Source: a virus
Reading direction: 5' to 3' (one strand)
IMG/VR virus record: IMGVR_UViG_3300013117_000272
Span: 1 to 21,424 of that record
Length of the DNA: 21,424 nucleotides
Part shown: one piece after another, positions 767 to 20,683 of the stretch
Numbering within the stretch: the stretch's first letter is position 1
Layout of the letters: each line of letters begins with the position of its first letter
Program-made: the position numbers and the translations under genes
Notes under the pieces: model-generated
The model's input: only the letters and a program-made list of their open reading frames with translations
Told to the model about the DNA's origin: nothing
Database searches by the model: none

Positions 767-988
767 ATGAAAAGATTCGACCAAAAAGAAATTGATGAAA
801 TTTACGAATACGCGGTTAATGAACTGGAGTGTGCTTATCGTGACAAACCTGTGTGTAGAAAGCGGCTTCGATATGTGCTGATTGACATCGACATTGCAAA
901 TGAACCAGTAGAAAAATTCGATATCGATTCGAGCCGGGTCCCGGTAATTCAGAGCATCATTAAAAAGATCGGCGGTGATGAAATATGA
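767..988 (+). CDS. Hypothetical small phage protein (73 aa)
   Basis: A 73-residue mixed-charge, probably helical protein with no recognised family. I place the start at 767 because GGAG sits about ten bases upstream; the frame is open back to 707 but has no ribosome site there. Its end overlaps the next start by four bases (ATGA), so it is probably coupled to the HTH gene that follows. Confidence 0.6.
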   Translation: MKRFDQKEIDEIYEYAVNELECAYRDKPVCRKRLRYVLIDIDIANEPVEKFDIDSSRVPVIQSIIKKIGGDEI

Positions 989-1220: not shown

Positions 1221-2270
1221 ATGGATTTTATGCAGCTGTATAAAATGCCTAAATACGGGACCTATTACATCCGTTATTCGCGCACCGAAGTGCCGCCCGA
1301 CGGCAAGCTGATATCCATGCGTAAAATCGTGGGCCGTTCCATCACCGATCCGGATGAAGCGCAGCAGGTATTCGATGGTGTTAAAAAAACCAATTTAAAA
1401 TCCAAAATGGCCGAGCTCCAGCGCGGCCGCCGCATTTCATTAGAAGATTTTAGCAAAGAATACATCGAGGATCCCGGGCGGGCCGATCTCAGCCCCGATA
1501 CCCTGCGCATGGACGCCCTGGCCCTGAAAAGCCTGGGCAACGTTGTCGGTCACTCCCGGGCCGTCCGCGCCGTTAATTCCAGTGATCTAAAAAAATTCAA
1601 ACAGGTGTGCCTTGATCGCGGCCTGTCTGTCTGGAGCGTGATATCATACATGGGCCATATCAAGGCGGCCCTGAATTTTGCCGTCGAAGCCGGCTACCGC
1701 CAAAAGGCGCCCCGGGTCCCCCGGATGCGGCGGCCGCAAAGACTGCCCAAGGTCATACCGTCCCATCATCTGGATGTGCTGCTGCCCTATCTAAAGGCCA
1801 ACGATTTTGAAATATGGCGCTATGCTGAATTCGCCCTGGCCACCGGCTGCCGTTTGTCCGAGATCCACGGCCTGACCGGTCCGGATATCACCATGTACGA
1901 ACAGCCCAACCAGAAAGTGTACGGCCGCGCCCGCATTATCGGCAAGGGCGATAAAGAGCGCAACACGCCCCTGATCAAAGAGGCCCTGGCGGCCATGGGC
2001 TCTGTCCCGGACATCGGCCCGGTATTTTTACAGCACCATCCGGACAATATTTCGCACCGCATCCGGGCCGCCGTAAAAGCCTGCGGATTGGACGGCCTGG
2101 GCATCACCATGCACGCCCTGCGCCACACCGCCGCAACCCGCATGGTAGAAAAAGGCTACCGCCTAGAGATCATCCAGCAGATCCTGGGCCACAGCGATAT
2201 CCGCACAACCCAGATCTACGCCACCATTTACGATCAGGTAGTAGAAGACGAAATCAACCGCCGAGGCTGA
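1221..2270 (+). CDS. int: Tyrosine-family site-specific integrase
   Basis: A 349-residue tyrosine recombinase, normal length for phage integrases. The N-terminal part (about 1-85) is the arm-binding region, about 85-175 is the SAM-like core-binding domain, and the rest is catalytic. Expected active-site residues are visible: Arg211 in ATGCRLSEI, Lys242 in GKGDKER, His298 and Arg301 in HALRHTAATR, His324 in LGHSDIRTT and the nucleophile Tyr333. I chose the ATG at 1221, after AAAGG, over an upstream TTG at 1200. It catalyses strand exchange between attP and a host att site. The tRNA-Thr fragment about 280 bases downstream, flanked by direct repeats, is the likely attP. The gene appears complete. 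Confidence 0.95.
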   Translation: MDFMQLYKMPKYGTYYIRYSRTEVPPDGKLISMRKIVGRSITDPDEAQQVFDGVKKTNLKSKMAELQRGRRISLEDFSKEYIEDPGRADLSPDTLRMDALALKSLGNVVGHSRAVRAVNSSDLKKFKQVCLDRGLSVWSVISYMGHIKAALNFAVEAGYRQKAPRVPRMRRPQRLPKVIPSHHLDVLLPYLKANDFEIWRYAEFALATGCRLSEIHGLTGPDITMYEQPNQKVYGRARIIGKGDKERNTPLIKEALAAMGSVPDIGPVFLQHHPDNISHRIRAAVKACGLDGLGITMHALRHTAATRMVEKGYRLEIIQQILGHSDIRTTQIYATIYDQVVEDEINRRG

Positions 2271-2271
2271 T

Positions 2272-2475
2272 ATGGAAATACAAGAATTTAAAGAAGAGAA
2301 AGACGAACTTGAAAAAGACATATTGCAGAGTGTTGACAGACTGGTTGAAGGCTTCCGAAACCGCACCGGCTTTTCACCCCACGACATAAAAATTTATCTG
2401 GCCGATGTCTCCGGTCGCGGAGAAAATCCCCGCCGCTGGGTAGTGTCTGAAACGGAAGTAAATATCGATTTATAA
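2272..2475 (+). CDS. Hypothetical small protein downstream of integrase
   Basis: A 67-residue charged protein: a Lys/Glu-rich N-terminal helix (about residues 1-30) followed by a short beta-rich tail (IKIYLADVSGRGE...RRWVVSETEVNIDL). Its ATG lies one base after the integrase stop, so it is probably translated from the same message by re-initiation. I recognise no family. Position between integrase and attP suggests an accessory role in recombination or simply a late-added gene. Confidence 0.55.
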   Translation: MEIQEFKEEKDELEKDILQSVDRLVEGFRNRTGFSPHDIKIYLADVSGRGENPRRWVVSETEVNIDL

Positions 2476-2737: not shown

Positions 2738-2932
2738 ATGAAAACCTCAATCAAAATAATCAAGGTTAAAGAGATAGCAGAAAACACCGTAACAGTCATC
2801 AAAGAAAATGGCGATGAATTAAAATTGCCGATCAGTCAAACCGAACGGTTCGGCAACCGGGTTTTTATCCCGACTTGGTTGGCTCAAAAAATAGGAGGGC
2901 AAAGAAATGGAAAAAGAAGTGTGTATCCATAA
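2738..2932 (+). CDS. Hypothetical small beta-rich protein (64 aa)
   Basis: A 64-residue protein whose pattern (KIIKVKEIAENTVTVIKENGDELKLP) suggests a small beta-barrel, superficially like CsrA or SH3-type folds, but it lacks recognisable CsrA motifs. I start it at 2738 because the frame further upstream runs back into the attP region. It overlaps the strong start of the next gene by 26 bases, which fits a coupled early operon. Function unknown. Confidence 0.5.
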   Translation: MKTSIKIIKVKEIAENTVTVIKENGDELKLPISQTERFGNRVFIPTWLAQKIGGQRNGKRSVYP

Positions 2933-3644
2933 TTCGAATTTGACGCCTGAAACATGCGCCATCTGTATCAAGCAAAAAGGCGAAAAATTACCGATCGACA
3001 ACCAGGACGATGAAACAAAACTGCATCCCAACCTTCTGGTCGTCAAAATGGTCCGGGATGCCGGGCTTGATATTAAGGCCTTTCTTAGGCAAGGAGTAAG
3101 AACAAGAGAATATTCAGACCTCAAAGATAAGATTCTGTCGGAACTGCAGGCAAATCATCCGGAATTATCACAGCAGAATCTCGGCCAGCTGCTGAACCTT
3201 TCCCCTGCTGCAATAAGCCAACGGTTATCAAAAATAAAGATGGCTTCTGACTGGGCCCGTGAAGATGAAGCCGCCACACAGGTTTGTAAAGATCCTGATT
3301 GTGAATCTAATGGCGAACCGCAGCCTGTAGATACCAATTTTCAGATTCATGGGCCCAGTCAGAAGCCATTGGAGATATGCAAAGAGTGCATGGCCCGAAG
3401 ATTTAAAAACGGGATAAAAAAGAAATCCGTTAAAAAGCCTGAACCGAACAAAAAAAAGAAGGCGGCGCCGGCAACGATTCCATCGGATTGCAGCCTGGTG
3501 ATCGATTTTTCAAAATTTCCGGATGTGCTGAAAAAGATCCGGAGCGTGGCCTATGATGAAGTTCGAACACCCGAAGGCCAGGTCTTATACTGGCTGAAAG
3601 AATTCTCACTTCTCCAAAACCAAAAAACCGAAAAAGCCGCCTAA
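2907..3644 (+). CDS. Cys-rich HTH regulator, phage early region
   Basis: A 245-residue protein behind a strong AGGAGGG ribosome site. Residues 1-20 hold a possible zinc motif (Cys6, His8, Cys17, Cys20). Residues 87-110 (ELSQQNLGQLLNLSPAAISQ, then RLSKIK) form a clear helix-turn-helix. Residues 127-161 hold a second Cys cluster (127, 132, 158, 161). A Lys-rich linker (about 170-188) leads to a C-terminal domain. It is probably a DNA-binding regulator or replication-control protein of the early operon. A 24-bp inverted repeat lies within the gene, its second arm falling inside the second Cys cluster. I do not recognise the full-length family. Confidence 0.65.
   Translation: MEKEVCIHNSNLTPETCAICIKQKGEKLPIDNQDDETKLHPNLLVVKMVRDAGLDIKAFLRQGVRTREYSDLKDKILSELQANHPELSQQNLGQLLNLSPAAISQRLSKIKMASDWAREDEAATQVCKDPDCESNGEPQPVDTNFQIHGPSQKPLEICKECMARRFKNGIKKKSVKKPEPNKKKKAAPATIPSDCSLVIDFSKFPDVLKKIRSVAYDEVRTPEGQVLYWLKEFSLLQNQKTEKAA
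3240..3369 (+). repeat. Long inverted repeat inside a coding region
   Basis: The arms 3240-3263 and 3346-3369 are reverse complements over 24 positions: 19 Watson-Crick pairs in a row, one G.U in RNA at 3259/3350, then four more pairs. The gap between arms is 82 bases. There is no T tract, so it is not a terminator. Both arms are coding (first MASDWARE, second HGPSQKPL). Such a long perfect stem is not expected in coding sequence. Confidence 0.9.
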
Positions 3645-3660: not shown

Positions 3661-5052
3661 ATGCATTTAATGGAATATCAGAAGTTTTTGGAGTCGAAAA
3701 TAATACAGCACGAAGCAAGCGGATTTGATGTTTCGCTTGACGATTTAAACCCCATGCTTTTTGACTGGCAGAAGGTTTTGATTAGGTGGGCATTGTTCAA
3801 GGGCAGGGCGGCCATTTTCGCAGATTGCGGTCTTGGCAAAACTCTGATGCAGCTTGAATGGGCCGATAAGGTTTGCCGCAAAACAGGCGGAAGTGTCCTG
3901 TTGTTTGCACCATTGGCGGTGTCGATTCAGACGAAACATGAGGGCCAGAAGTTCGGCATCGATGTTAATGCGTGCAAGGATCAATCCGATATGGTCTCGG
4001 GCGTCAATATAACCAATTATGAGCGCATGGAAAAATTTGATCCGGGTGAATTTGTTGGGATCGTGCTGGATGAATCCAGCATCCTGAAAAACTTTGCCGG
4101 CAAGATACGCAACTACATAATCGATGCTTTTTTATATACACCGTATAAACTGTGCTGCACAGCAACCCCGGCACCAAACGATTATATGGAACTTGGCAAT
4201 ACGTCAGAGTTTTTAGGGATAATGACGCGGGCAGAAATGCTGTCCATGTATTTCATTAACGATGCTTCAAAAACAGGAACATGGAGGCTGAAGGGGTATG
4301 TCAAAGATAATAAGTTTTGGGAGTGGATTTCAACATGGGCCGTAATTATGCAAAAACCGCAAGATGTCGGCTACCCAAACAACGGCTTTGACCTGCCCCC
4401 GCTTTACATTCACGAACACATTATAAAATACAACGGCGCAAAAACGTCTTTATTTACAGAAGAAGCGAGAACGCTTTCAGAGCGCCGGGCATCAAGAAAA
4501 GAATCTATGCCCGGAAGATTAAAAAAGACCCTGCAAATTATTCAAGACGATCCCGGCGAAATTTGGCTTACATGGTGCAACCTTAACATCGAAAGCGACA
4601 TGCTTAAAAAGTCTATTAGTGGGTGTGTCGAGGTCAAGGGCTCGGATTCTGTCGAACATAAAGAAAATTCAATAATTGGGTTTTCGAATGGTGATATAAA
4701 ATCGCTCGTGACAAAGCCTAAAATCGCTGGCTTTGGTGTAAACTGGCAGGTGTGTAATAATGTTATATTTTTTGGGTTGTCTGATAGTTATGAGCAGTTC
4801 TATCAAGCTACCCGGCGGTGTTGGCGGTTCGGTCAAAAAAAGCCCGTCAACCTGCATATTGTGATTGGCGAAAAAGAGAAGTCTGTTCTTGATAACGTTA
4901 AAAGAAAGGAGGCTGATGCAAAGAATATGTTTCATGAAATGGTGGGGTATATGAAAAAAAATACACTTCACCAATTAGAAAATCTTGAGATCAAAACAGC
5001 ACCATATAACCCCAAAAAAGAAATGGAGCTCCCGCAATGGCTAATGTTTTAG
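3661..5052 (+). CDS. SNF2-type DEAD/DEAH helicase
   Basis: A 463-residue superfamily 2 ATPase. Residues 56-61 are the Walker A CGLGKT and 137-140 the DESS box (motif II). CTATPAPNDYME is motif III, and residues 382-392 (QATRRCWRFGQ) are motif VI with its arginine fingers. This set is typical of compact phage SNF2-like translocases, which move on duplex DNA rather than unwinding it fully. The ATG follows AAAGGAG closely after the regulator stop. The end overlaps the methyltransferase gene by 16 bases, so the two are co-translated and probably act together, for example in modifying or protecting phage DNA. The partner role is inferred; the ATPase call is firm. Confidence 0.92.
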   Translation: MHLMEYQKFLESKIIQHEASGFDVSLDDLNPMLFDWQKVLIRWALFKGRAAIFADCGLGKTLMQLEWADKVCRKTGGSVLLFAPLAVSIQTKHEGQKFGIDVNACKDQSDMVSGVNITNYERMEKFDPGEFVGIVLDESSILKNFAGKIRNYIIDAFLYTPYKLCCTATPAPNDYMELGNTSEFLGIMTRAEMLSMYFINDASKTGTWRLKGYVKDNKFWEWISTWAVIMQKPQDVGYPNNGFDLPPLYIHEHIIKYNGAKTSLFTEEARTLSERRASRKESMPGRLKKTLQIIQDDPGEIWLTWCNLNIESDMLKKSISGCVEVKGSDSVEHKENSIIGFSNGDIKSLVTKPKIAGFGVNWQVCNNVIFFGLSDSYEQFYQATRRCWRFGQKKPVNLHIVIGEKEKSVLDNVKRKEADAKNMFHEMVGYMKKNTLHQLENLEIKTAPYNPKKEMELPQWLMF

Positions 5053-5981
5053 ATCAGAAACTTGGTGATGGTTGGGCAATGTATCATGGGGATTCGGTTG
5101 AGGTTATTAAGCCCATCCCTGACAACTCGGCGCACTATTTTTTGTTTAGCCCGCCGTTTGAGGACCTGTTTACATATTCTGACTCAGAGAGGGATGTTGG
5201 AAACTGCAAGAAGGGCGAGTTTGATAAGCATTTTGGGTTTTTGGTAAAAGATATATACAGGGCACTAATGCCCGGCAGGTTGGTTAGTGTTCACTGTATG
5301 GACCTGCTGGCTACTATTACAAAAGATGGATTTATCGGACTAAAAGATTTTTCTGGATCAATTATAAGGCTATTTGAGGCGGCTGGCTTTATCTACCATT
5401 CAAGGGTTTGTATATGGAAAGATCCGCTTGTGCAGGCTGTCAGGACAAAGGCTTTGGGGTTGGCCCATAAGCAAATATCAAAAGACTCGTCAAGGTGTAA
5501 TATGGGCCTGCCTGATTATATAATTACAATGCGCAAGGCGGGAGAAAACCCGGAACCAATATCCCACGGCAGAGGGTTTGAGCGGTATATAGGCGAAATG
5601 CCAGAGCCAAAAAGACAAAAAAACGATGATCCACGAAAAAACAAATATAGCCATGAGGTTTGGCAGCGATACGCATCCCCCGTGTGGTTTGATATTAACC
5701 AAACTAACACATTAAACATACGGGCTGCCAGAGACGAGAATGATGAAAAACATATTTGCCCGCTGCAACTTGATACAATAGGCAGGTGTTTAGATTTATG
5801 GTCTAATCCGGGCGATGTTGTGGTAGATCCGTTTTCGGGCGTTGGCTCGGTCGGGTATCAGGCGTTGAAAATGGGCCGTAAGTTTGTTGGTGTTGAATTA
5901 AAAGAATCGTATTACAAACAGGCTATTAAAAACCTTGACAAGGTGGCGTGGGAGCAAAAACAAGTCGGCCTTTTTAATTAA
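5037..5981 (+). CDS. DNA methyltransferase (N4-cytosine / N6-adenine, beta type)
   Basis: A 314-residue site-specific DNA methyltransferase. The catalytic motif IV is SPPF (residues 38-41), and the S-adenosylmethionine motif I is DPFSGVGSVG (264-273), followed by VGVEL. Motif IV before motif I marks the beta class. SPP(F/Y/W) is more usual in N4-cytosine enzymes, though some N6-adenine enzymes share it. The start lies inside the helicase gene behind GGAG. No restriction endonuclease is adjacent, so it is probably an orphan phage methylase giving protection against host restriction or marking DNA. Target sequence cannot be read from the gene. Confidence 0.93.
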   Translation: MANVLDQKLGDGWAMYHGDSVEVIKPIPDNSAHYFLFSPPFEDLFTYSDSERDVGNCKKGEFDKHFGFLVKDIYRALMPGRLVSVHCMDLLATITKDGFIGLKDFSGSIIRLFEAAGFIYHSRVCIWKDPLVQAVRTKALGLAHKQISKDSSRCNMGLPDYIITMRKAGENPEPISHGRGFERYIGEMPEPKRQKNDDPRKNKYSHEVWQRYASPVWFDINQTNTLNIRAARDENDEKHICPLQLDTIGRCLDLWSNPGDVVVDPFSGVGSVGYQALKMGRKFVGVELKESYYKQAIKNLDKVAWEQKQVGLFN

Positions 5982-5990
5982 CCAAAAAAA

Positions 5991-6133: not shown

Positions 6134-6391
6134 ATGAAAAACAATACGAAAAATAAACTGATACATTTAAACGATCATTTATTTGCCCAAATGGAACGCT
6201 TGTCAGACGAAGATCTGAAAGGCGATAATCTCACGGAAGAAATCATGCGGGCAAAGTCGATCGGTTTTGTGGCCAGTCAGATCATAGGTAACGCAAAGTT
6301 GGCGCTGGATGCACAAAAAATAATATATGAACATCTAATCAAAAAACCGCCCAAAATGCTTGGATTAGATGGCTATGACGAAGCCGAATAG
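6134..6391 (+). CDS. Conserved small helical phage protein (85 aa)
   Basis: An 85-residue, mainly helical protein (NDHLFAQMERLSDEDLKGDN, then a long helix to ALDAQKIIYEHL) behind AAAGGGAG. The pattern resembles a family of uncharacterised small proteins encoded next to HNH genes in many prophages; that is from memory and not checked. It overlaps the HNH gene by 23 bases. Its biochemical role is unknown. Confidence 0.7.
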   Translation: MKNNTKNKLIHLNDHLFAQMERLSDEDLKGDNLTEEIMRAKSIGFVASQIIGNAKLALDAQKIIYEHLIKKPPKMLGLDGYDEAE

Positions 6392-7190
6392 ATACACACC
6401 GGAACAGATCGAGTTTTTGCGGGAGGGCTATCAGTCTATGAACACCCGCGATCTGACAAAAGCCTTCAATGCAAAGTACGGCGCCAGCAAAACCGAAACT
6501 GCAATTAAATCGGCCTTGGCTAATCGTAAAATAACCTGCGGGCGAGCTCACAAAGACAGGCTGGTTACTCTCCGCCGGCTATGCACTCCGGAGCAAGATC
6601 AGTTTATAAAAAACAATTATATAAAACTGAGCCAGCGTGAATTGACAACCATGCTTAACGCGAAATTCAATACCGGCTTTACCGTAGGGCAAATTAAAAC
6701 GTATGTAAAAAACCATAAGATCCGGTCAGGCCGGACAGGCTGTTTTGAAAAGGGTAACACGCCTTGGAATCACGGTACAAAAGGGCAGGGATTAACGGGC
6801 CCGAATAGCGGCTCTTTTAAAAAAGGGAACGTGCCGGCGAACCGCAAACCACTGTGGAGCGAGAGGGTTTGTTCGAAGGATGGGTTTGTATTAATGAAAG
6901 TTCCGGAGGTTGACCCGTATACCGGATTCCCGACGCGCTATAAGCATAAGCACGTTTACATATGGGAGCAGGAGAACGGCCCGGTACCGGAGGGAGTGGT
7001 CGTAGCATTTAAAGGTGGAGATAAAACAAACTGCGAGCCAGAAAACCTGATGCTGATTTCGCGTGCGGAGCTACTCCGGTTAAACAAGCATGGATACAAA
7101 GACGCGCCCGATGAATTAAAGCCGAGCATACTGGCGTTGGCCAAACTTGAAGTAAAAGCATTTGAAAAGGGACACAGTAAAAACATATGA
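6369..7190 (+). CDS. HNH endonuclease with two N-terminal HTH repeats
   Basis: A 273-residue protein. Residues 9-59 and 72-122 are two related repeats (YTPEQIEFLREGY... and CTPEQDQFIKNNY..., each ending KI.(C/S)GR) that look like Myb/SANT-type DNA-binding helices. Residues 123-160 hold the GNTPWN and GNVPANRKP linker motifs common in phage HNH proteins. Residues 195-230 (HVYIWEQENGPVPEG, then NCEPENLMLISR) carry the HNH nuclease core with His193/195, Asn221 and Asn226. It nicks or cuts DNA, either as a free-standing homing nuclease or in replication or packaging. It overlaps genes on both sides. Confidence 0.88.
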   Translation: MAMTKPNRYTPEQIEFLREGYQSMNTRDLTKAFNAKYGASKTETAIKSALANRKITCGRAHKDRLVTLRRLCTPEQDQFIKNNYIKLSQRELTTMLNAKFNTGFTVGQIKTYVKNHKIRSGRTGCFEKGNTPWNHGTKGQGLTGPNSGSFKKGNVPANRKPLWSERVCSKDGFVLMKVPEVDPYTGFPTRYKHKHVYIWEQENGPVPEGVVVAFKGGDKTNCEPENLMLISRAELLRLNKHGYKDAPDELKPSILALAKLEVKAFEKGHSKNI

Positions 7191-7610: not shown

Positions 7611-7940
7611 ATGGTTAAATTTTATAAGTGTTTAGAGCCGCAAGATAGGATTTGCCCGAATTGCAAGGATGATAAAGGCGAGCCCATGAACGAAGGGGAA
7701 CCATTACCAAGAACTCACTTGCTCATATCCGGTTTTCTTTCATCGGTAATGAGCGGTCAAGGGCGGAGTTGTTGCCTGGTGGAATATGCCGAGGGCTGGT
7801 GTGGATTCCCTGGTTTTAGTGGTTTTTCGGTGATGTGTCCGGATTGTGGGTGTGAAGCTGGAATTGATCCGCAGCCGATGCCGGATATGGCGGTGTTGGA
7901 ATGGCGAAAATGGCAGGTAGAGAATAAGGTGGCGGCTTGA
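7611..7940 (+). CDS. Lar-like zinc-ribbon protein with capsid-derived insert
   Basis: A 109-residue protein behind GGAAGG. The ends match the restriction-alleviation Lar pattern: a first knuckle CPNC (Cys15, Cys18), a second knuckle CPDCGC after FSVM, then a tail with MAVLEWRKWQVEN resembling the family's closing AIEAWNxR. Lar proteins modulate type I restriction in some phages; here that role is inferred. Oddly, residues 19-37 (KDDKGEPMNE, then GEPLPRTHL) are encoded by a 59-base block that is a rearranged copy of part of the capsid gene. The spacing between knuckles is also longer than I would expect. The gene end overlaps the helicase start by four bases. Confidence 0.6.
   Translation: MVKFYKCLEPQDRICPNCKDDKGEPMNEGEPLPRTHLLISGFLSSVMSGQGRSCCLVEYAEGWCGFPGFSGFSVMCPDCGCEAGIDPQPMPDMAVLEWRKWQVENKVAA
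7664..7722 (+). repeat. Rearranged copy of capsid-gene DNA (31 nt direct + 28 nt inverted)
   Basis: Bases 7664-7694 are identical to 20287-20317. The next 28 bases, 7695-7722, are the exact reverse complement of 20321-20348; counting base 7694 in both, the inverted match is 29. Thus 59 bases here correspond to one continuous 63-base capsid segment with its second half flipped and three bases (20318-20320) lost. Flanking bases on both sides do not match. The block keeps the reading frame open. Confidence 0.95.
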
Positions 7941-9601
7941 CGGATCAAACGGACCGACCGGACCAGGATAAGGTTGAGCGGTATAAAAAGCAGGTTGAAG
8001 AGCGTAAAGCAGCCGAGGCGGAGAAGTATAAAACGGATGATCCTGTAAAGGAAATTCTGCCGTGGTTCATCCGCGACTGTTTAAACGCCAATGAATTCGG
8101 CGACGGGATGCTTTTCAAGGAATTGTATCGTGGGAAATTTCTCTACAATAAAGCAATGGCCTGTTGGATGATCTGGAATGGCCACCATTGGGAAATCGAT
8201 TACATGGACGCGGCACTGGCCGCGGTGGAAGGTGTTGTGGCCGAATATCAGAAGGAATTTAACCGGGTTGATATCGAAATCAAGAAAATGGATGAAAAAG
8301 ACCCGGCCCTGGGGTACATGAAATCGGTTAGAAAATCGATTAAAAGCCGTATAAACGCCCTGCGCGGCAAATCCCGCCGGCAAAACTGCCTTTTATTTGC
8401 GCACACGACCGACGATCCGGTCGCCATCCAAGGGGATGAAATCGATAATCAACCGTGGCTGCTGCCCTGCCCTAATGGTGTTGTGGATTTAAAAACCGGT
8501 ATTTTCAGAGGTGGGCGGCCGGATGATTACCTTCTGAAAGCCTGCCGGGTAAAATGGGCCGGGATCGATGCACCCAGGGACGCCTGGGAATCGGCGCTGA
8601 TGCAAATTTATGATGATGATGCGGCGGTGGTCGGTTTTATGCAGCGACTTTGCGGCTGCGCTCTGGTGGGCGCGGTGATCGAACATATTTTTGCGGTATT
8701 GATCGGCAAGCGCGGCCGCAACGGCAAAGGGTCTATTTTTATGGGGATGCTGCTGCACGTTTTGGGCCAGCTGGCCGCGCCGATCACGCCGGAAATGCTG
8801 CTGGCCCAAGCGACCAAGGGTAGTTCATCGGGGCCCACGCCGGATATTATGTCCCTGCGCGGGCTGCGGTTTGCGTTTGCCACTGAAACAGACGAACACG
8901 CGCGGTTTTCAGCCGCCCGGGTAAAATGGTTTTCAGGCGGTGAAGAGCTTACCGGCCGCAATCCGCACGATAAATACCCGACTACATTCAAACCGACCCA
9001 TACGCTTTTTTTACTAACCAATTACGAGCCGCACGCGCCGGCGGATGATGATGCCTTCTGGGAAAGAATTCTGCAGATCCCGCACAATATATCGTTTGTC
9101 AACCGCGATCCCAAAGAGCCGCACGAACGTAAAGCGGATTTGTATTTAGCTGAAAAACTCAAAGCGCAGGCCCCGGGTATTCTGGCCTGGATAGTGGAAG
9201 GTTGTCTGTTGTGGCAAAAAGATGGCCTGGACCCGCCGCCGGAGATTTTAGCGGCCAAACAAAAATACCGGCGCCGGGAAGATGTGCTGCTGGATTTTTT
9301 GGATGAATGCTGCCTTACAGAAAAAGAGTCCACCGGCGGGGCATCGCATCTTTTTACGGTTTTTGAAGTCTGGTGGAAGATCAATGTTTCAAAACACGCG
9401 CCCAAACAAAAATCATTCGGTAATTTGATGGGTAAAAAGTTCGAAAAAGATAAAATCGGCGGTGTTTATCGATATTATGGCGTACGGCTTAAAGATCACC
9501 TGCAAGCATATTTGGATCAAAATAAAGCTATAAAAGAAATTGAACTTGAAACACTGATCCGTTACGGGCCCAATCAGGACGATCAGGACCATTTGATTTA
9601 A
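7937..9601 (+). CDS. Phage replicative helicase, P4/D5 primase C-terminal family
   Basis: A 554-residue superfamily 3-type ATPase. The N-terminal 35 residues are charged and helical. About 40-200 correspond to the D5_N-type region. Walker A is G257-KRGRNGKGS-266, and Walker B is within RFAFATETDE (311-320). A winged-helix-like C-terminal domain runs from about 425 to 525. Proteins of this kind unwind the origin and fork in P4-like phages and plasmids. The start appears to be a TTG at 7937 overlapping the preceding stop, with AAGGTGG upstream; there is no nearby ATG in frame. Primase function is supplied by a separate gene at 9859. The C-terminal domain recurs in the protein at 11874. Confidence 0.9.
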   Translation: MTDQTDRPDQDKVERYKKQVEERKAAEAEKYKTDDPVKEILPWFIRDCLNANEFGDGMLFKELYRGKFLYNKAMACWMIWNGHHWEIDYMDAALAAVEGVVAEYQKEFNRVDIEIKKMDEKDPALGYMKSVRKSIKSRINALRGKSRRQNCLLFAHTTDDPVAIQGDEIDNQPWLLPCPNGVVDLKTGIFRGGRPDDYLLKACRVKWAGIDAPRDAWESALMQIYDDDAAVVGFMQRLCGCALVGAVIEHIFAVLIGKRGRNGKGSIFMGMLLHVLGQLAAPITPEMLLAQATKGSSSGPTPDIMSLRGLRFAFATETDEHARFSAARVKWFSGGEELTGRNPHDKYPTTFKPTHTLFLLTNYEPHAPADDDAFWERILQIPHNISFVNRDPKEPHERKADLYLAEKLKAQAPGILAWIVEGCLLWQKDGLDPPPEILAAKQKYRRREDVLLDFLDECCLTEKESTGGASHLFTVFEVWWKINVSKHAPKQKSFGNLMGKKFEKDKIGGVYRYYGVRLKDHLQAYLDQNKAIKEIELETLIRYGPNQDDQDHLI

Positions 9602-11873: not shown

Positions 11874-12635
11874 ATGCCCAATGTAGTTATTAGAACAAAA
11901 TTAAGAAATATATTGATTTGTGATTTCGAGCTTAGCATGAGAGCAACAAGAATATTATCTTATTTGATTATTGATCATACTATAGAAGATATTTTAAAAA
12001 TGGTCGAAAGTGGTCAGTTGAAAAAAATTAAAGGAATAGGAGATAAAACATTTATAGAAATTACAGAGTGTTTTTCAAAACAAATTACAGCGTCATGGTT
12101 AAGAGAAAAATGGGGGGAGCTTGAAACAGAATTAAGCCTATTACGAGCGCAAATAAAATATATGAATGAAATATTAAAAAGGCTAAGAGAAGAAGCTATG
12201 TCCGTAAGAGGTTTATGGACTGATAAAATAAACTTGGTTGAAGGCTACCTGTTGTGGCAGAAGCAAGGTTTAAACCCGCCTCCTATGGAATATATATCCC
12301 AATGGCACCACCCAAGGATGGAAAAATCCCATCCCAGATCATGTTCCACCGTAAAACAGGCCCTCGCGGAATACAGGCGGAAGCGGACAATCCGCAGGGC
12401 CTGGTCCAGCGAGGATATTCTTTCAGACTTTCTTGATGAGTGTTGCGAGATCGGACCGGAATTGAATGAAGGCGCATCTGTTCTCTATGATTGTTTCGAA
12501 AATTGGTGGACGAAAAAAGTTTCGAAAAATCCTCCCAAACAACGGCGATTCGGCCAGTGGCTTGGAATGCGGTTTGAAAAGCGAAAGATTAAAGGTGCTT
12601 ATGTTTATAAAGGTATTTCACTTCAAATTGAATAA
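11874..12635 (+). CDS. Fusion of RNA polymerase alpha-CTD-like domain with D5-type C-terminal domain
   Basis: A 253-residue protein behind a perfect AAAGGAGG. Residues 15-70 (DFELSMRATRILSYLIIDHT, then IEDIL... LKKIKGIGDKTFIEI) match the C-terminal domain of bacterial RNA polymerase alpha, including the helix-hairpin-helix that contacts DNA. Residues 72-118 look like a coiled coil. From residue 122 (VEGYLLWQKQGLNPPP) to the end it resembles the last 130 residues of the phage helicase at 7937: shared DFLDECC, a GAS patch, an F..WW pattern, and PPKQRRFGQWLG against APKQKSFGNLMG. An extra 20-odd residues sit near 138-160. The first half is AT-rich, the second GC-rich, which fits a mosaic join. 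It may bind DNA or polymerase and compete with or regulate the helicase; this is inference. Confidence 0.75.
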   Translation: MPNVVIRTKLRNILICDFELSMRATRILSYLIIDHTIEDILKMVESGQLKKIKGIGDKTFIEITECFSKQITASWLREKWGELETELSLLRAQIKYMNEILKRLREEAMSVRGLWTDKINLVEGYLLWQKQGLNPPPMEYISQWHHPRMEKSHPRSCSTVKQALAEYRRKRTIRRAWSSEDILSDFLDECCEIGPELNEGASVLYDCFENWWTKKVSKNPPKQRRFGQWLGMRFEKRKIKGAYVYKGISLQIE

Positions 12636-13049: not shown

Positions 13050-13331
13050 ATGTATGAATTTAAAATGGGCAGATTGTTTGTAATTGGTGGAATTAGAAAA
13101 AAAACCAGAGGTAAAAAACCAACTTGCCAAATATGTGAAAAAACAATTTTGGAAAATGAAGAAGCGCTTTCGATTAAAGCTATTGGTGAATATGAAAGAA
13201 GTCATCATTATAAATGTTTGATGAAATTATTTAATAAAATTAAGAAACAAAGAAGTCATCATTATAAATGTTTGATGAAATTATTTAATAAAATTAAGAA
13301 ACATGGCGATACCGCAACCGATAGAGATTGA
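13050..13331 (+). CDS. Small zinc-finger protein with an internal 18-residue duplication
   Basis: A 93-residue basic protein, one base after the HTH gene. Cys26 and Cys29 (CQIC) with His52/His53 and Cys56 (HHYKC) make a likely C2HC zinc site, reminiscent of short PARP-type or treble-clef fingers. A perfect 54-base tandem duplication repeats 18 residues, giving a second HHYKCLMKLFNKIKK (His70/His71, Cys74). The last ten residues are read from DNA that also starts the terminase gene in another frame, so the ancestral protein was probably shorter. The DNA is much more AT-rich than the flanking terminase genes, a sign of acquired cargo. Confidence 0.55.
   Translation: MYEFKMGRLFVIGGIRKKTRGKKPTCQICEKTILENEEALSIKAIGEYERSHHYKCLMKLFNKIKKQRSHHYKCLMKLFNKIKKHGDTATDRD
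13195..13302 (+). repeat. Perfect 54-bp tandem duplication
   Basis: Bases 13195-13248 are repeated exactly as 13249-13302, two full copies with no mismatch. The unit is 18 codons long, so the frame of the zinc-finger gene is kept. The second copy ends on the base before the terminase ATG at 13303, so the terminase ribosome-site region (weak AAGAA) is itself duplicated. Identity of the copies indicates a recent event or an assembly slip. Confidence 0.97.
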
Positions 13332-15923: not shown

Positions 15924-16136
15924 ATGACGCAAACCTGGGCCGAAATCGTTGCCGAGCTGGAAACCGCCAAAACTGCAATTTTGACCGGCGCTCAATCCTA
16001 TTCAGGCACCGGGGGCCGATCAGCGACCAATGCCGATCTTAAAGCGGTGATGGAAGAGTTGAGAAAAGCCAAGTTAATGGCGGCCCGCGAAGCCAACGGC
16101 GGCATATTAATCAAAGGGGCAACTCCGGTGGACTGA
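15924..16136 (+). CDS. gpW-like head-tail joining protein
   Basis: A 70-residue protein in the lambda gpW position, between the large terminase and portal genes. Two helices flank a short turn: WAEIVAELETAKTAILTGAQ, then LKAVMEELRKAKLMAAREAN. gpW-type proteins plug the portal after DNA packaging and form the platform for tail binding. I start at 15924 (GGGG upstream) rather than 15912. The stop overlaps the portal ATG (TGATG). Sequence likeness is modest, so position carries much of the call. Confidence 0.6.
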   Translation: MTQTWAEIVAELETAKTAILTGAQSYSGTGGRSATNADLKAVMEELRKAKLMAAREANGGILIKGATPVD

Positions 16137-17698
16137 TGCGCGAAGTTATTCATAAAAACAAAATTGACATCAAGCCCAACATCATTGACCGGGCGGTTTC
16201 CTTTTTATCACCGGTTCGCGGGGCCGTGCGCATGCGTGCCAGAATAGGCATGACCCTGATCCAGAGTTATGCCGGCGCATCCAAAAGCCGCCGCTCGCTT
16301 TCCGAGTGGAAAACCAGCAGCGGTGATGCCGACACCGACATTCTGCCGTACCTGGCCGACTTGCGGGAGCGCTCCCGGGACCTGGTGCGCGACAACCCTC
16401 TGGCTGCCGGCGCCATCAATACCAAGTTGACCAGCATTGTGGGCACCGGCCTGGTGTTACGATCCCGCATCGACCGCGATATTTTGGGATTAAATGAAGA
16501 TAATGCCGATGCCTGGGAAAAAAGGACCGAAGCCGAATGGAGATTGTGGGCCAATTCGACCGATTGCGATATTACGCGTACCTTGAATTTTGCCGGCATT
16601 CAGGACCTGGCGTTAAGATCGACCCTTGAAAACGGCGATGTTCTTATTTTGACGCCCGAAAAAGAGATAAAGGGCCGTCCCTACCGGCTACGGTTGCAAC
16701 TTGTAGAATCGGACCGCGTTTGCAATGCCGACAATATCGCCGATACCGAAACCCTGGCCGAAGGCGTACAAAAAGACATGTACGGGGCGCCGGATGAATA
16801 TCACATTCTGCAGGGCCATCCCGGGAACCTTTATTCCGAACAAAACAAATGGAAAAGAATCAAGGCATACGGTTCTAAAACCGGCCGCAAAAATGTGCTG
16901 CACCTTTACAACAAGCGCCGTGTGGGCCAAACCCGGGGCGTGCCCGACCTGGCCCCGGTGATTGAAATTTTAAAGCAGCTCGGACGGTACACCGATTCCG
17001 AAGTTGCCGCCGCTGTTGTCAGTTCTTTTTTTACGGTTTTCATCAAATCCGAATCTCAAGACGGCCTGGGCGTTATGCAGCCCCAGACCGAAACCGGCGG
17101 CAAAGCCAGCGACAAAGACTATAAACTGGCATCCGCAGCCATCCTGGACCTGAATCCCAACGAAAGCATCGAAACCGCAAATCCCGGACGCCCCAACCAA
17201 TCGTTTGATCCGTTTGTTTTGGCGGTAATGCGGCAGGTCGGCGTGGCCCTGGAGTTGCCCTTTGAACTGCTGGTCAAACATTTTACCGCCAGTTATTCGG
17301 CGGCAAGGGCCGCGCTGCTGGAGGCCTGGCGATACTTCAAGGGGCGCCGCAAATGGCTGGCAGATAATTTGTGCCGCCCGGTTTACGAATTATGGATGAC
17401 CGAGGCGGTTGCAAGCGGCCGCATCGCCGCCCCCGGGTTTTTAACGGGCGACTCTCTGATCAGACAGGCGTATCTGGGGTCGGAATGGACCGGCCAGGCC
17501 CCCGGGCAAATCGACGAAAAAAAAGAGGTCGAAGCCGCCGAGAAACGAATTGACCTGACGCTGACAACTCATTCGGAAGAAACCGCCGCTTTAACCGGCG
17601 GCGATTGGGATCAGAAGTTCCCGCAGCGGGCCAAAGAACAAAGAAAGATCATAGATGCCGGGCTGGACAGAGACAAAACAGAAACAAAGGAGGATTAA
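16136..17698 (+). CDS. Portal protein, lambda gpB family
   Basis: A 520-residue portal protein. The early region (LRERSRDLVRDNPLAAGAIN, then TKLTSIVGTGL) and the later LYNKRRVGQTRGVPDLAPVI are hallmarks of the lambda-type portal family, as is a C-terminal AARAALLEAWRYFKGRRKWL segment. Twelve copies form the ring through which terminase pumps DNA. It is coupled to the gpW-like gene by TGATG and followed by a strong AAAGGAGG. Confidence 0.93.
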   Translation: MREVIHKNKIDIKPNIIDRAVSFLSPVRGAVRMRARIGMTLIQSYAGASKSRRSLSEWKTSSGDADTDILPYLADLRERSRDLVRDNPLAAGAINTKLTSIVGTGLVLRSRIDRDILGLNEDNADAWEKRTEAEWRLWANSTDCDITRTLNFAGIQDLALRSTLENGDVLILTPEKEIKGRPYRLRLQLVESDRVCNADNIADTETLAEGVQKDMYGAPDEYHILQGHPGNLYSEQNKWKRIKAYGSKTGRKNVLHLYNKRRVGQTRGVPDLAPVIEILKQLGRYTDSEVAAAVVSSFFTVFIKSESQDGLGVMQPQTETGGKASDKDYKLASAAILDLNPNESIETANPGRPNQSFDPFVLAVMRQVGVALELPFELLVKHFTASYSAARAALLEAWRYFKGRRKWLADNLCRPVYELWMTEAVASGRIAAPGFLTGDSLIRQAYLGSEWTGQAPGQIDEKKEVEAAEKRIDLTLTTHSEETAALTGGDWDQKFPQRAKEQRKIIDAGLDRDKTETKED

Positions 17699-17701
17699 CC
17701 G

Positions 17702-17749
17702 ATGGCTTATAACACCACACAGAGACAAAAAGGGGGAAAGGGAAAATGA
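17702..17749 (+). CDS. Possible 15-aa leader peptide before protease
   Basis: An ATG eight bases after a perfect AAAGGAGG (17686-17693) opens a 15-codon frame, MAYNTTQRQKGGKGK, whose stop overlaps the protease ATG (ATGA). The best ribosome site here therefore belongs to the tiny frame, not directly to the protease, although GGGGGAAAGGGA inside it also serves the protease. It may act as a coupling leader. It may equally be an accident of spacing. Confidence 0.35.
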   Translation: MAYNTTQRQKGGKGK

Positions 17750-19726: not shown

Positions 19727-20683
19727 ATGGGAGTCAAACTTTTAACAGAAAGGCAGATTATCGGCACTTTCTATAAGGCGTTAGAACAGGATGTCGGTTC
19801 CGCCTGGGTTTCGAAGGTGTCAAACCTTTTCAATTCCGATCAGGCGTCCGAGCAATACGCCTGGTTGGGTATGAGCCCGGCTTTGCGTGAATGGGTCGGT
19901 GGCCGAAATGCCAAGGGTTTCAGGGAAAACAACCTGACTATCACCAATAAGCATTACGAGGCCACCCTGGAGGTTCTGGTTCGAGATTTGCGCCGGGACA
20001 AATCCGGGCAGGTGTTGATTCGAATTGCGGAAATGGCCAGAAGGGCCAACGCCCATTGGGCGTCCCTGCTTACCACCCTGATCCTGAATGCCGCCTCCAC
20101 GACTTGTTACGATGGTCAGTATTTCTTTGATACGGATCATTCAGAGGGTGATTCCGGGACCCAGGACAATGACATTACGGTTGATATTTCCGCCATGCCC
20201 GTTGCAACGGCAGGAAGTGTGACCGTTCCGGCAGTTGCGGAAATGCAATGGGCAATCGTTCACGGCATCAATGCGATTTGCGGTTTCAAGGATGATAAAG
20301 GCGAGCCCATGAACGAAAACGCAAGTGAGTTCTTGGTAATGGTTCCCCTGACCTTGGGAATGGCGGCACAACAGGCCGTTGCAACACCGTTTGCCGGGGC
20401 GCCTACCGAACTGGCATTGAAGTCGGTTCCGCCGGGTTTTTCAATTTCGGTGGTGCCAAATGCCAGAATCGGCACCGACTGGACCGATGAATTTGTCGTG
20501 TTTCGAACGGATTCGGCTATCAAAGCTTTCATCCGCCAGGAAGAAACCGCGGTGCAGATGAAGGTCAAAGGCTACGGGTCGGAATACGAATTTGACAACG
20601 ATGCCCATCAGTACGGCATCGATACGTGGCGAAATGTCGGATACGGTTACTGGCAGAATGCTTGCTTTGTAACGATGGTTTAA
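19727..20683 (+). CDS. Major capsid protein, Mu gpT-like
   Basis: A 318-residue head protein behind AGGGGGAT. The start (LLTERQIIGTFYKALEQ), the WLGMSPALREWVGGR and NLTITNKHYEATLEV segments, and the FFDTDHSEG patch are typical of the Mu-like gpT group of HK97-fold capsid proteins. The closing GYGYWQNACFVTMV is also usual. A Mu-type capsid beside lambda-type portal and terminase makes the head module a mosaic. Bases 20287-20349 within it (residues about 188-207) are the donor-like segment for the rearranged copy in the zinc-ribbon gene. Confidence 0.92.
   Translation: MGVKLLTERQIIGTFYKALEQDVGSAWVSKVSNLFNSDQASEQYAWLGMSPALREWVGGRNAKGFRENNLTITNKHYEATLEVLVRDLRRDKSGQVLIRIAEMARRANAHWASLLTTLILNAASTTCYDGQYFFDTDHSEGDSGTQDNDITVDISAMPVATAGSVTVPAVAEMQWAIVHGINAICGFKDDKGEPMNENASEFLVMVPLTLGMAAQQAVATPFAGAPTELALKSVPPGFSISVVPNARIGTDWTDEFVVFRTDSAIKAFIRQEETAVQMKVKGYGSEYEFDNDAHQYGIDTWRNVGYGYWQNACFVTMV
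20287..20349 (+). repeat. Capsid segment matching the zinc-ribbon insert
   Basis: Bases 20287-20317 match 7664-7694 directly, and 20321-20349 match 7694-7722 as reverse complement; only 20318-20320 are unmatched. The protein here (DDKGEPMNENASEFLVMVP) runs smoothly within the gpT-like sequence, so the capsid copy is probably the original and the copy at 7664 is derived. Confidence 0.95.

Follow-up and report, generated by a model that had tools for sequence, protein, structure and literature searches.

Diversity-generating retroelements transfer sequence from a template into a variable target gene. Complex insertions at DNA double-strand breaks in yeast often combine two pieces of a single locus, inverted relative to each other; in rtt105 mutants these pieces lie next to one another and overlap little or not at all; for yeast inversions, the available text gives a junction overlap with a median of 6 nt and a range of 2-11 nt (PMC11724301). 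Reverse-complement copying via template switching has been described with four switch points in the accessible part of another study (PMC8794818). As far as its available text goes, the literature found concerns short template-switch insertions in eukaryotes or at local quasipalindromes in bacteria, and no title or abstract in the open-licence literature reported fragments of this kind in a phage.

The locus described here lies in a virus record of 21,424 bases, which was analysed as a whole and is referred to as the window. Over most of its early half, the window is almost the same as two records of other metagenomes, 3300009314_000713 and 3300009320_000939 (about 99.9% identity, indels aside). 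These are referred to as the sister strains 9314 and 9320, each derived from another metagenome assembly, and each has a capsid-bearing partner contig (L115, L117). All exact repeats of at least 13 nt in the window were searched, and a small early gene was found to contain a block that matches the major capsid gene in two parts. The features concerned are the following:

7611-7940, plus strand: small early gene (recipient) of 109 aa with CPNC...CPDC motifs and without a family match; a mosaic of copied fragments
7664-7694, plus strand: direct copy of capsid 20287-20317, 31 nt, exact
7694-7722, plus strand: inverted copy of capsid 20321-20349, 29 nt, exact reverse complement
13195-13303, plus strand: exact tandem duplication, 54 nt, in frame (exact-repeat search)
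19727-20683, plus strand: major capsid gene, Mu-like gpT (Pfam E 1.1e-40; PHROG major head protein)
20287-20349, plus strand: donor site within the capsid gene, identical in the sister contigs L115 and L117

The two arms (31 + 29 nt) have one A at 7694 in common, and the three donor bases 20318-20320 are skipped at the switch. Apart from the tandem duplication, which gives a 55-nt match, both arms are the longest exact repeats of the window; the chance expectation in about 41 kb is about 4e-10 for 31 nt and 6e-9 for 29 nt. The initial annotation had reported this composite block, and its 31-nt direct arm and three skipped bases hold, but the inverted arm measures 29 nt and not 28, and its donor end lies at 20349 and not 20348. 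The ends, which had been called sharp, are so with respect to exact identity; if one mismatch is tolerated, however, the direct match reaches 20284 (97% over 34), and in the sister strains a gapped alignment with mismatches takes the inverted match as far as donor base 20306 (87% over 46 columns), so that the right border of the block may be less clean than exact identity implies. As had been noted before, the block keeps the frame of the small gene open (109 aa) and is flanked by the two CxxC motifs. Translation of its direct half follows the reading frame of the capsid gene (KDDKGEPMNE).

At the donor site, the stretch GFKDD(K/Q/R)GEPMNE was found exactly in 11 of the 18 aligned capsid proteins and in close variants in the remainder. 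As the encoded stretch is conserved among capsid relatives, the DNA originally belongs to the capsid gene, which, judged from this alignment, served as donor, with the small early gene receiving the copy. The reverse direction, from the small gene into the capsid gene, is ruled out by the same conservation.

The small gene had been assigned to the Lar family with a role in anti-restriction. At E values up to 10, with most weak matches removed by the HMMER filters, none of the profiles listed from Pfam, NCBIfam or PHROGs was a Lar profile; the family membership was rejected for this reason, and the anti-restriction role is unsupported; the label 'zinc ribbon' rests on the CPNC and CPDC motifs in the translation. 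The best profile match of the sister-type protein was to PHROG 17873 (function unknown; E 0.0095) over residues 14-30, hence through the block, and the same residues weakly matched DUF3797 (E 0.33); with the window-type protein, the PHROG 17873 match was absent. Such weak profile matches are taken to be driven by the CPNC motif. If they were real, which would count against the explanation favoured below, this stretch would in part belong natively to the sister reading frame; the DNA match to the capsid gene makes this hard to believe. The searches made, two of which are uninformative when empty, returned no homologues outside the two sister strains, and no small-gene homologue was recognised directly upstream of the D5 gene in L102, L103, L106 and L110.

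The sister strains carry the same composite block, shortened by 5 and 7 nt, and retain 26 nt of the inverted arm and 9 + 17 nt of the direct arm. The two differences are:

7673-7677, plus strand: strain-variable TAAAG, in the window and missing from both sister strains; first of two compensating indels
7720-7726, plus strand: strain-variable 7 nt, in the window and not in the sister strains; second of the compensating indels, with a position uncertain by one base

A change from the window type to the sister type by two small deletions looks simpler than the opposite. No outgroup with the small gene was found in the searches made, which counts against the explanation favoured below, since the state before insertion is not seen. 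Likewise, no empty allele of the capsid block was found among the records searched.

The 9314 and 9320 assemblies differ by SNPs and indels and are thus not one assembly listed twice. For 9320, an early contig of 21,400 b and a late contig of 19,735 b overlap by 119 nt at either end, suggesting that the map is circular with a length of about 40.9 kb, so that close to the whole phage could be searched; the two contigs (about 41 kb) were searched unjoined. In a scan of the viral collection, which may omit the window's own record, a 24-base piece of the inverted arm occurred in four records, namely both sister records and their capsid-bearing partners; the exact window-type block was found in no record besides the window.

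The window and 9320 are distinguished by 16 single SNPs and one two-base change versus seven indel or complex changes (at 856, 2269 with a 526-nt difference, 7673, 7720, 7924, 17679 and 18413), five of which touch copied fragments (856, 7673, 7720, 7924 and 17679). Among 11 other near-identical record pairs, 120 SNPs and 3 indels were counted, the indels within aligned pieces only; two of the 13 control rows represented one public record twice and were left out. The pair L115/L117, which belongs to the same phage, showed 15 SNPs and no indel within its aligned pieces.

Several strain differences were observed in addition. At window 2269-2276, 9320 (L092 7240-7765) carries about 526 nt extra, completing a helix-turn-helix (HTH) gene that looks antitoxin-like by eye, and the window keeps the tail of that gene near 2269. 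As the ends of the extra segment share the 8-nt repeat GATATGGA, a deletion in the strains other than 9320 is likely. Genes for an SNF2-like helicase and a DNA methylase (window 3661-5982) are present in the window and 9320 and absent from the 9314 contig. Substitution clusters between the otherwise nearly identical strains occur at window 15935-15951 and at L154 13079; for the multi-base change at 15935, matches elsewhere did not exceed 11 nt. At window 18413 (L155 2592), the sister strains have a 12-nt insertion whose longest match elsewhere is 12 exact bases, CTTATAGTCCTA, at joined coordinate 15260 of L092/L008; this could be one more templated insertion or chance.

Beyond what the initial annotation had noted, the capsid fragment is one of several templated fragments, whose donors include genes other than the capsid gene. 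Within the small gene itself, one further fragment was found in the window and two in the sister strains:

7795-7818, plus strand: direct copy, 24 nt, from the tail-gene region (L155 18235-18258; a late gene containing internal repeats); within the small gene
7924-7925, plus strand: sister-strain insertion site, 31 nt in the sisters versus 2 in the window
8046-8074, plus strand: template of the 7924 sister insertion, at the start of the next gene (D5 gene)

Of the 31 nt inserted at 7924, 29 are an inverted copy of window 8046-8074 (in 9320, 33 nt at 97%, 29 of them exact); the pair is present in both sister strains and missing from the window. The change is not a multiple of three, and the sister small protein is altered and ends differently.

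Two inverted copies were found in a primase-helicase paralogue:

11874-12635, plus strand: D5-like primase paralogue, carrying 62-nt and 25-nt inverted copies
12285-12346, plus strand: inverted copy of late-gene DNA (L155 15855-15916), 62 nt, 1 mismatch (98%)
12383-12407, plus strand: inverted copy of the radical-SAM gene (L092 4507-4531), 25 nt

In each of the eight tblastn alignments that cover this region, seven of them to relatives and one to the window's own D5, the D5 paralogue carries a 21-residue and a 9-residue insertion, and the corresponding gaps coincide with the 62-nt and 25-nt inverted copies; a further, ninth alignment begins downstream of the region. The paralogue has a C-terminal D5-like domain, and its N-terminal part resembles a helix-hairpin-helix region by eye. 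The radical-SAM gene, donor of one inverted fragment, lies in the phage at L092 3929-4693. A separate D5-like paralogue was observed in G053 at 4796-5080. In the genome collection, 26 stretches matched a pattern for D5 relatives, none of which was confirmed.

Elsewhere in the window, three further sites were recorded:

843-869, plus strand: strain-variable site with TAGAAA, CTGGCA or nothing; either arm of the pair may be the donor
3346-3369, plus strand: inverted match, 24 nt, to 3240-3263, 1 mismatch (96%) in the window and 9320, exact in 9314
17679-17730, plus strand: window-only insertion, 52 nt, consisting of a 40-nt copy of a tail-gene start (L154 near 10208) and a 12-nt target duplication

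Without the 6 nt, as in 9320, the site at 843-869 gives a 21-nt exact inverted match to 3267-3287. The 3240/3346 pair is located within a protein (2907-3644), between its cysteine pairs CKDPDC and CKEC, and here too either arm may be the donor. The insertion at 17679 entered over a 7-nt match, GACAAAA; it is not a multiple of three and changes the last residues of the portal protein. An entry match of 7 nt together with a 12-nt target duplication is as expected at a repaired break.

Thus, the inserted pieces are near-exact copies of other places in the same genome, and an insertion is visible against an allele without it at 7924 and 17679 (between strains) and against homologues without it in the D5 paralogue. 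Reverse-complement copies predominate, and direct copies occur too (the capsid arm, the tail fragment and 17679). At the junctions, the matches measure 7 nt (entry at 17679), about 2 nt (exit at 7924) and 1 nt (between the capsid arms). The reading frame is kept by changes of 6, 12 (5+7), 12, 27, 54 and 63 nt, the values of 27 and 63 being taken from residue counts; it is, however, broken at 7924 and 17679, which counts against the favoured explanation. A dispersed, MITE-like repeat element was considered and rejected, as each fragment forms a single pair and not many copies.

The abundance of such pairs was compared with that in 23 phage sequences of 31-40 kb from the same capsid family or from D5 relatives. 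Pairs were kept at E values up to 1e-3 and at least 90% identity if they were of complex sequence and single copy; hairpins (inverted arms under 60 nt apart) and near-tandems were removed, and hits of at least 110 nt, low-complexity hits and multi-copy families were dropped. After filtering, 9320 (about 41 kb, two contigs) had six inverted pairs and one direct pair, 9314 four and one (contigs in matching orientation), and the window two and one; an extra direct match of 21 nt at 95% (E 0.02) was excluded from the counts. The 23 comparison sequences together yielded a single inverted pair under the same filter, in the GC-rich (0.72) G027; mutual relatedness is probable for many of the controls G057-G069. 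The highest-scoring D5 relative, G053 (57%), had no inverted pair. Before the low-complexity and multi-copy filter, however, 17 inverted pairs were present in four of the 23 controls (5 in G027, 9 in G051, 2 in G065 and 1 in G066) versus six in 9320, which counts against the favoured explanation. In addition, 20 stretches of 20 kb gave two exact inverted repeats of at least 19 nt, with L134 excluded as a repeat-array record (14 repeats, several of them inverted among the matches listed), its arrays being of another kind. Short dispersed repeats of the GGTTCAAAGGTT or GCCACAAAGGCAC type in the related phages L134, L162 and L159 belong to a different repeat class, and multi-copy dispersed repeats are also present in the relatives G006, G007 and G051.

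The best explanation, which we regard as probable, is that the block arose by a two-step template switch and that the same short self-copying, with the opposite strand preferred, has been repeated in this lineage; a template-switch copying event had already been proposed by the initial annotation. In such an event, a DNA end or nascent strand in the small gene would be extended by copying 31 bases of the capsid gene, would then jump to the opposite strand about 32 bases further on and copy 29 bases back, and the copied strand would finally rejoin the small gene. A recurrent process of this kind would leave fragments of about 20-60 nt, as in the small gene, the primase-helicase paralogue and the portal end, and would probably also have hit the second cysteine-pair protein (2907-3644). 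Template switching fits the shortness and exactness of the copies, their bias towards the opposite strand, donor distances that are small in some cases (about 80-120 nt) and large in others, and the short or missing microhomology. The excess of inverted fragments over the comparison phages also speaks for it. The copying would have occurred during replication or break repair, presumably by host enzymes, and selection may have kept mostly frame-preserving products. Neither a DNA polymerase nor a reverse transcriptase was found among the proteins scanned, which include an integrase, SNF2-like helicase, DNA methylase, D5, terminase, portal, HNH, primase, lysozyme and radical-SAM protein. It is a more doubtful proposition, which we put forward tentatively, that an unusually active phage or host process moves self-copies of 20-60 nt, largely from late genes and mainly inverted, into early accessory genes. 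A gene such as the 109-aa cysteine-pair gene would then be assembled and diversified out of the phage's own fragments, and template switching would provide gene innovation without a retroelement.

The source of the initiating DNA ends may be more specific. One neighbouring gene would be a candidate:

6369-7190, plus strand: gene for an HNH endonuclease, located upstream of the small gene; breaks may originate from it

Breaks made by this enzyme could have been repaired repeatedly with filler copied from the genome, which would be a special case of template switching with a named trigger. The gene ends about 470 nt upstream of the block, and the 12-nt duplication at 17679 is break-like. Seven of the 12 other D5-carrying records end within about 620 nt upstream of the D5 match, which may mark a variable site; the ends could, however, have arisen for different reasons, and the seven include one sequence twice. 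The enzyme has no known cut site, and the fragments near 0.9, 3.3, 12.3 and 17.7 kb lie far from its gene, so that we consider an HNH trigger unlikely. The records ending upstream of D5 are L103, L104, L105, L107, L108, L109 and L111, with L107 equal to L108 over 7.8 kb. These ends fall where the mosaic gene lies in the present phage and may indicate a variable or assembly-breaking site.

A chimera from amplification, library preparation or assembly had also been suggested by the initial annotation. Strand-displacement amplification with a phage replisome can yield template-switch chimeras, according to the available part of PMC9484634, and only one assembly contains the window-type block in its exact form and the 52-nt insertion at 17679. 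No paper on the sample of 3300009314 was found. The composite block, however, is held in slightly shortened form by two other assemblies (3300009314, 3300009320), and the 62-, 25- and 24-nt copies and the 3240/3346 pair likewise recur in further assemblies with SNP differences; these fragments must therefore predate the libraries. Protein alignments, moreover, independently mark two fragments as insertions. Taken together, an artefact is very unlikely.

We regard it as just as improbable that the inverted fragments serve as functional antisense, by which early transcripts would silence late genes. Several fragments do exactly complement late or neighbouring genes, but the same gene also holds capsid and tail fragments in direct orientation, the lengths range from 21 to 62 nt, the targets lie inside coding sequence at no common position, and the fragments differ between strains.

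Least probable of all is a retroelement or diversity-generating system in which a reverse transcriptase copies RNA before insertion: the transfer from template to target and the strain variability give a superficial likeness, but a reverse transcriptase was absent among the proteins scanned and, by eye, from the larger open reading frames listed, no fixed template repeat is present, and the copies are exact or nearly so and mostly inverted. The data do not demonstrate the dedicated mobile or diversity mechanism that had been offered as an alternative.

Template switching within an environmental phage would provide several templated insertions at once, from donors about 80 nt to many kilobases away and still variable between strains. 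It would thereby offer a natural system to study the rate of such events, the host or phage functions that enable them and the gain of residues in phage accessory genes. It also calls for caution, as short inverted matches between phage genes need not mean assembly errors.

Compared with the known systems, the phage block shares with diversity-generating retroelements the transfer from template to target, but no reverse transcriptase and no template repeat were seen. The likeness to the yeast insertions is closer: as described in the available text of PMC11724301, two short fragments of the same distant locus, the second inverted, lie adjacent at an unrelated site. In contrast to yeast, the phage fragments occur in natural genes, the frame is mostly kept, and there is no known break, replication-protein defect or flap-nuclease defect on the phage side; the arms overlap by 1 nt compared with the yeast median of 6 nt (PMC11724301), which counts against the favoured explanation. 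Template-switch mutations (PMC8794818, PMC7954356) and the quasipalindromes of E. coli (PMC7202029) likewise involve short reverse-complement copies that return to the original template. As far as the accessible parts of these studies describe them, those events are short-range or local, whereas the phage donors are located about 80-120 nt or many kilobases away and single phage genes collect several fragments. Exact inverted repeats inside protein genes are also known from the coding palindromes of Nematomorpha mitochondria; there, according to the available text, both arms encode conserved sequence (PMC6649704), whereas most phage pairs have one arm that is inserted sequence within an accessory gene. 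On these comparisons, the best reading of the phage fragments is that of template-switch or templated-insertion mutation.
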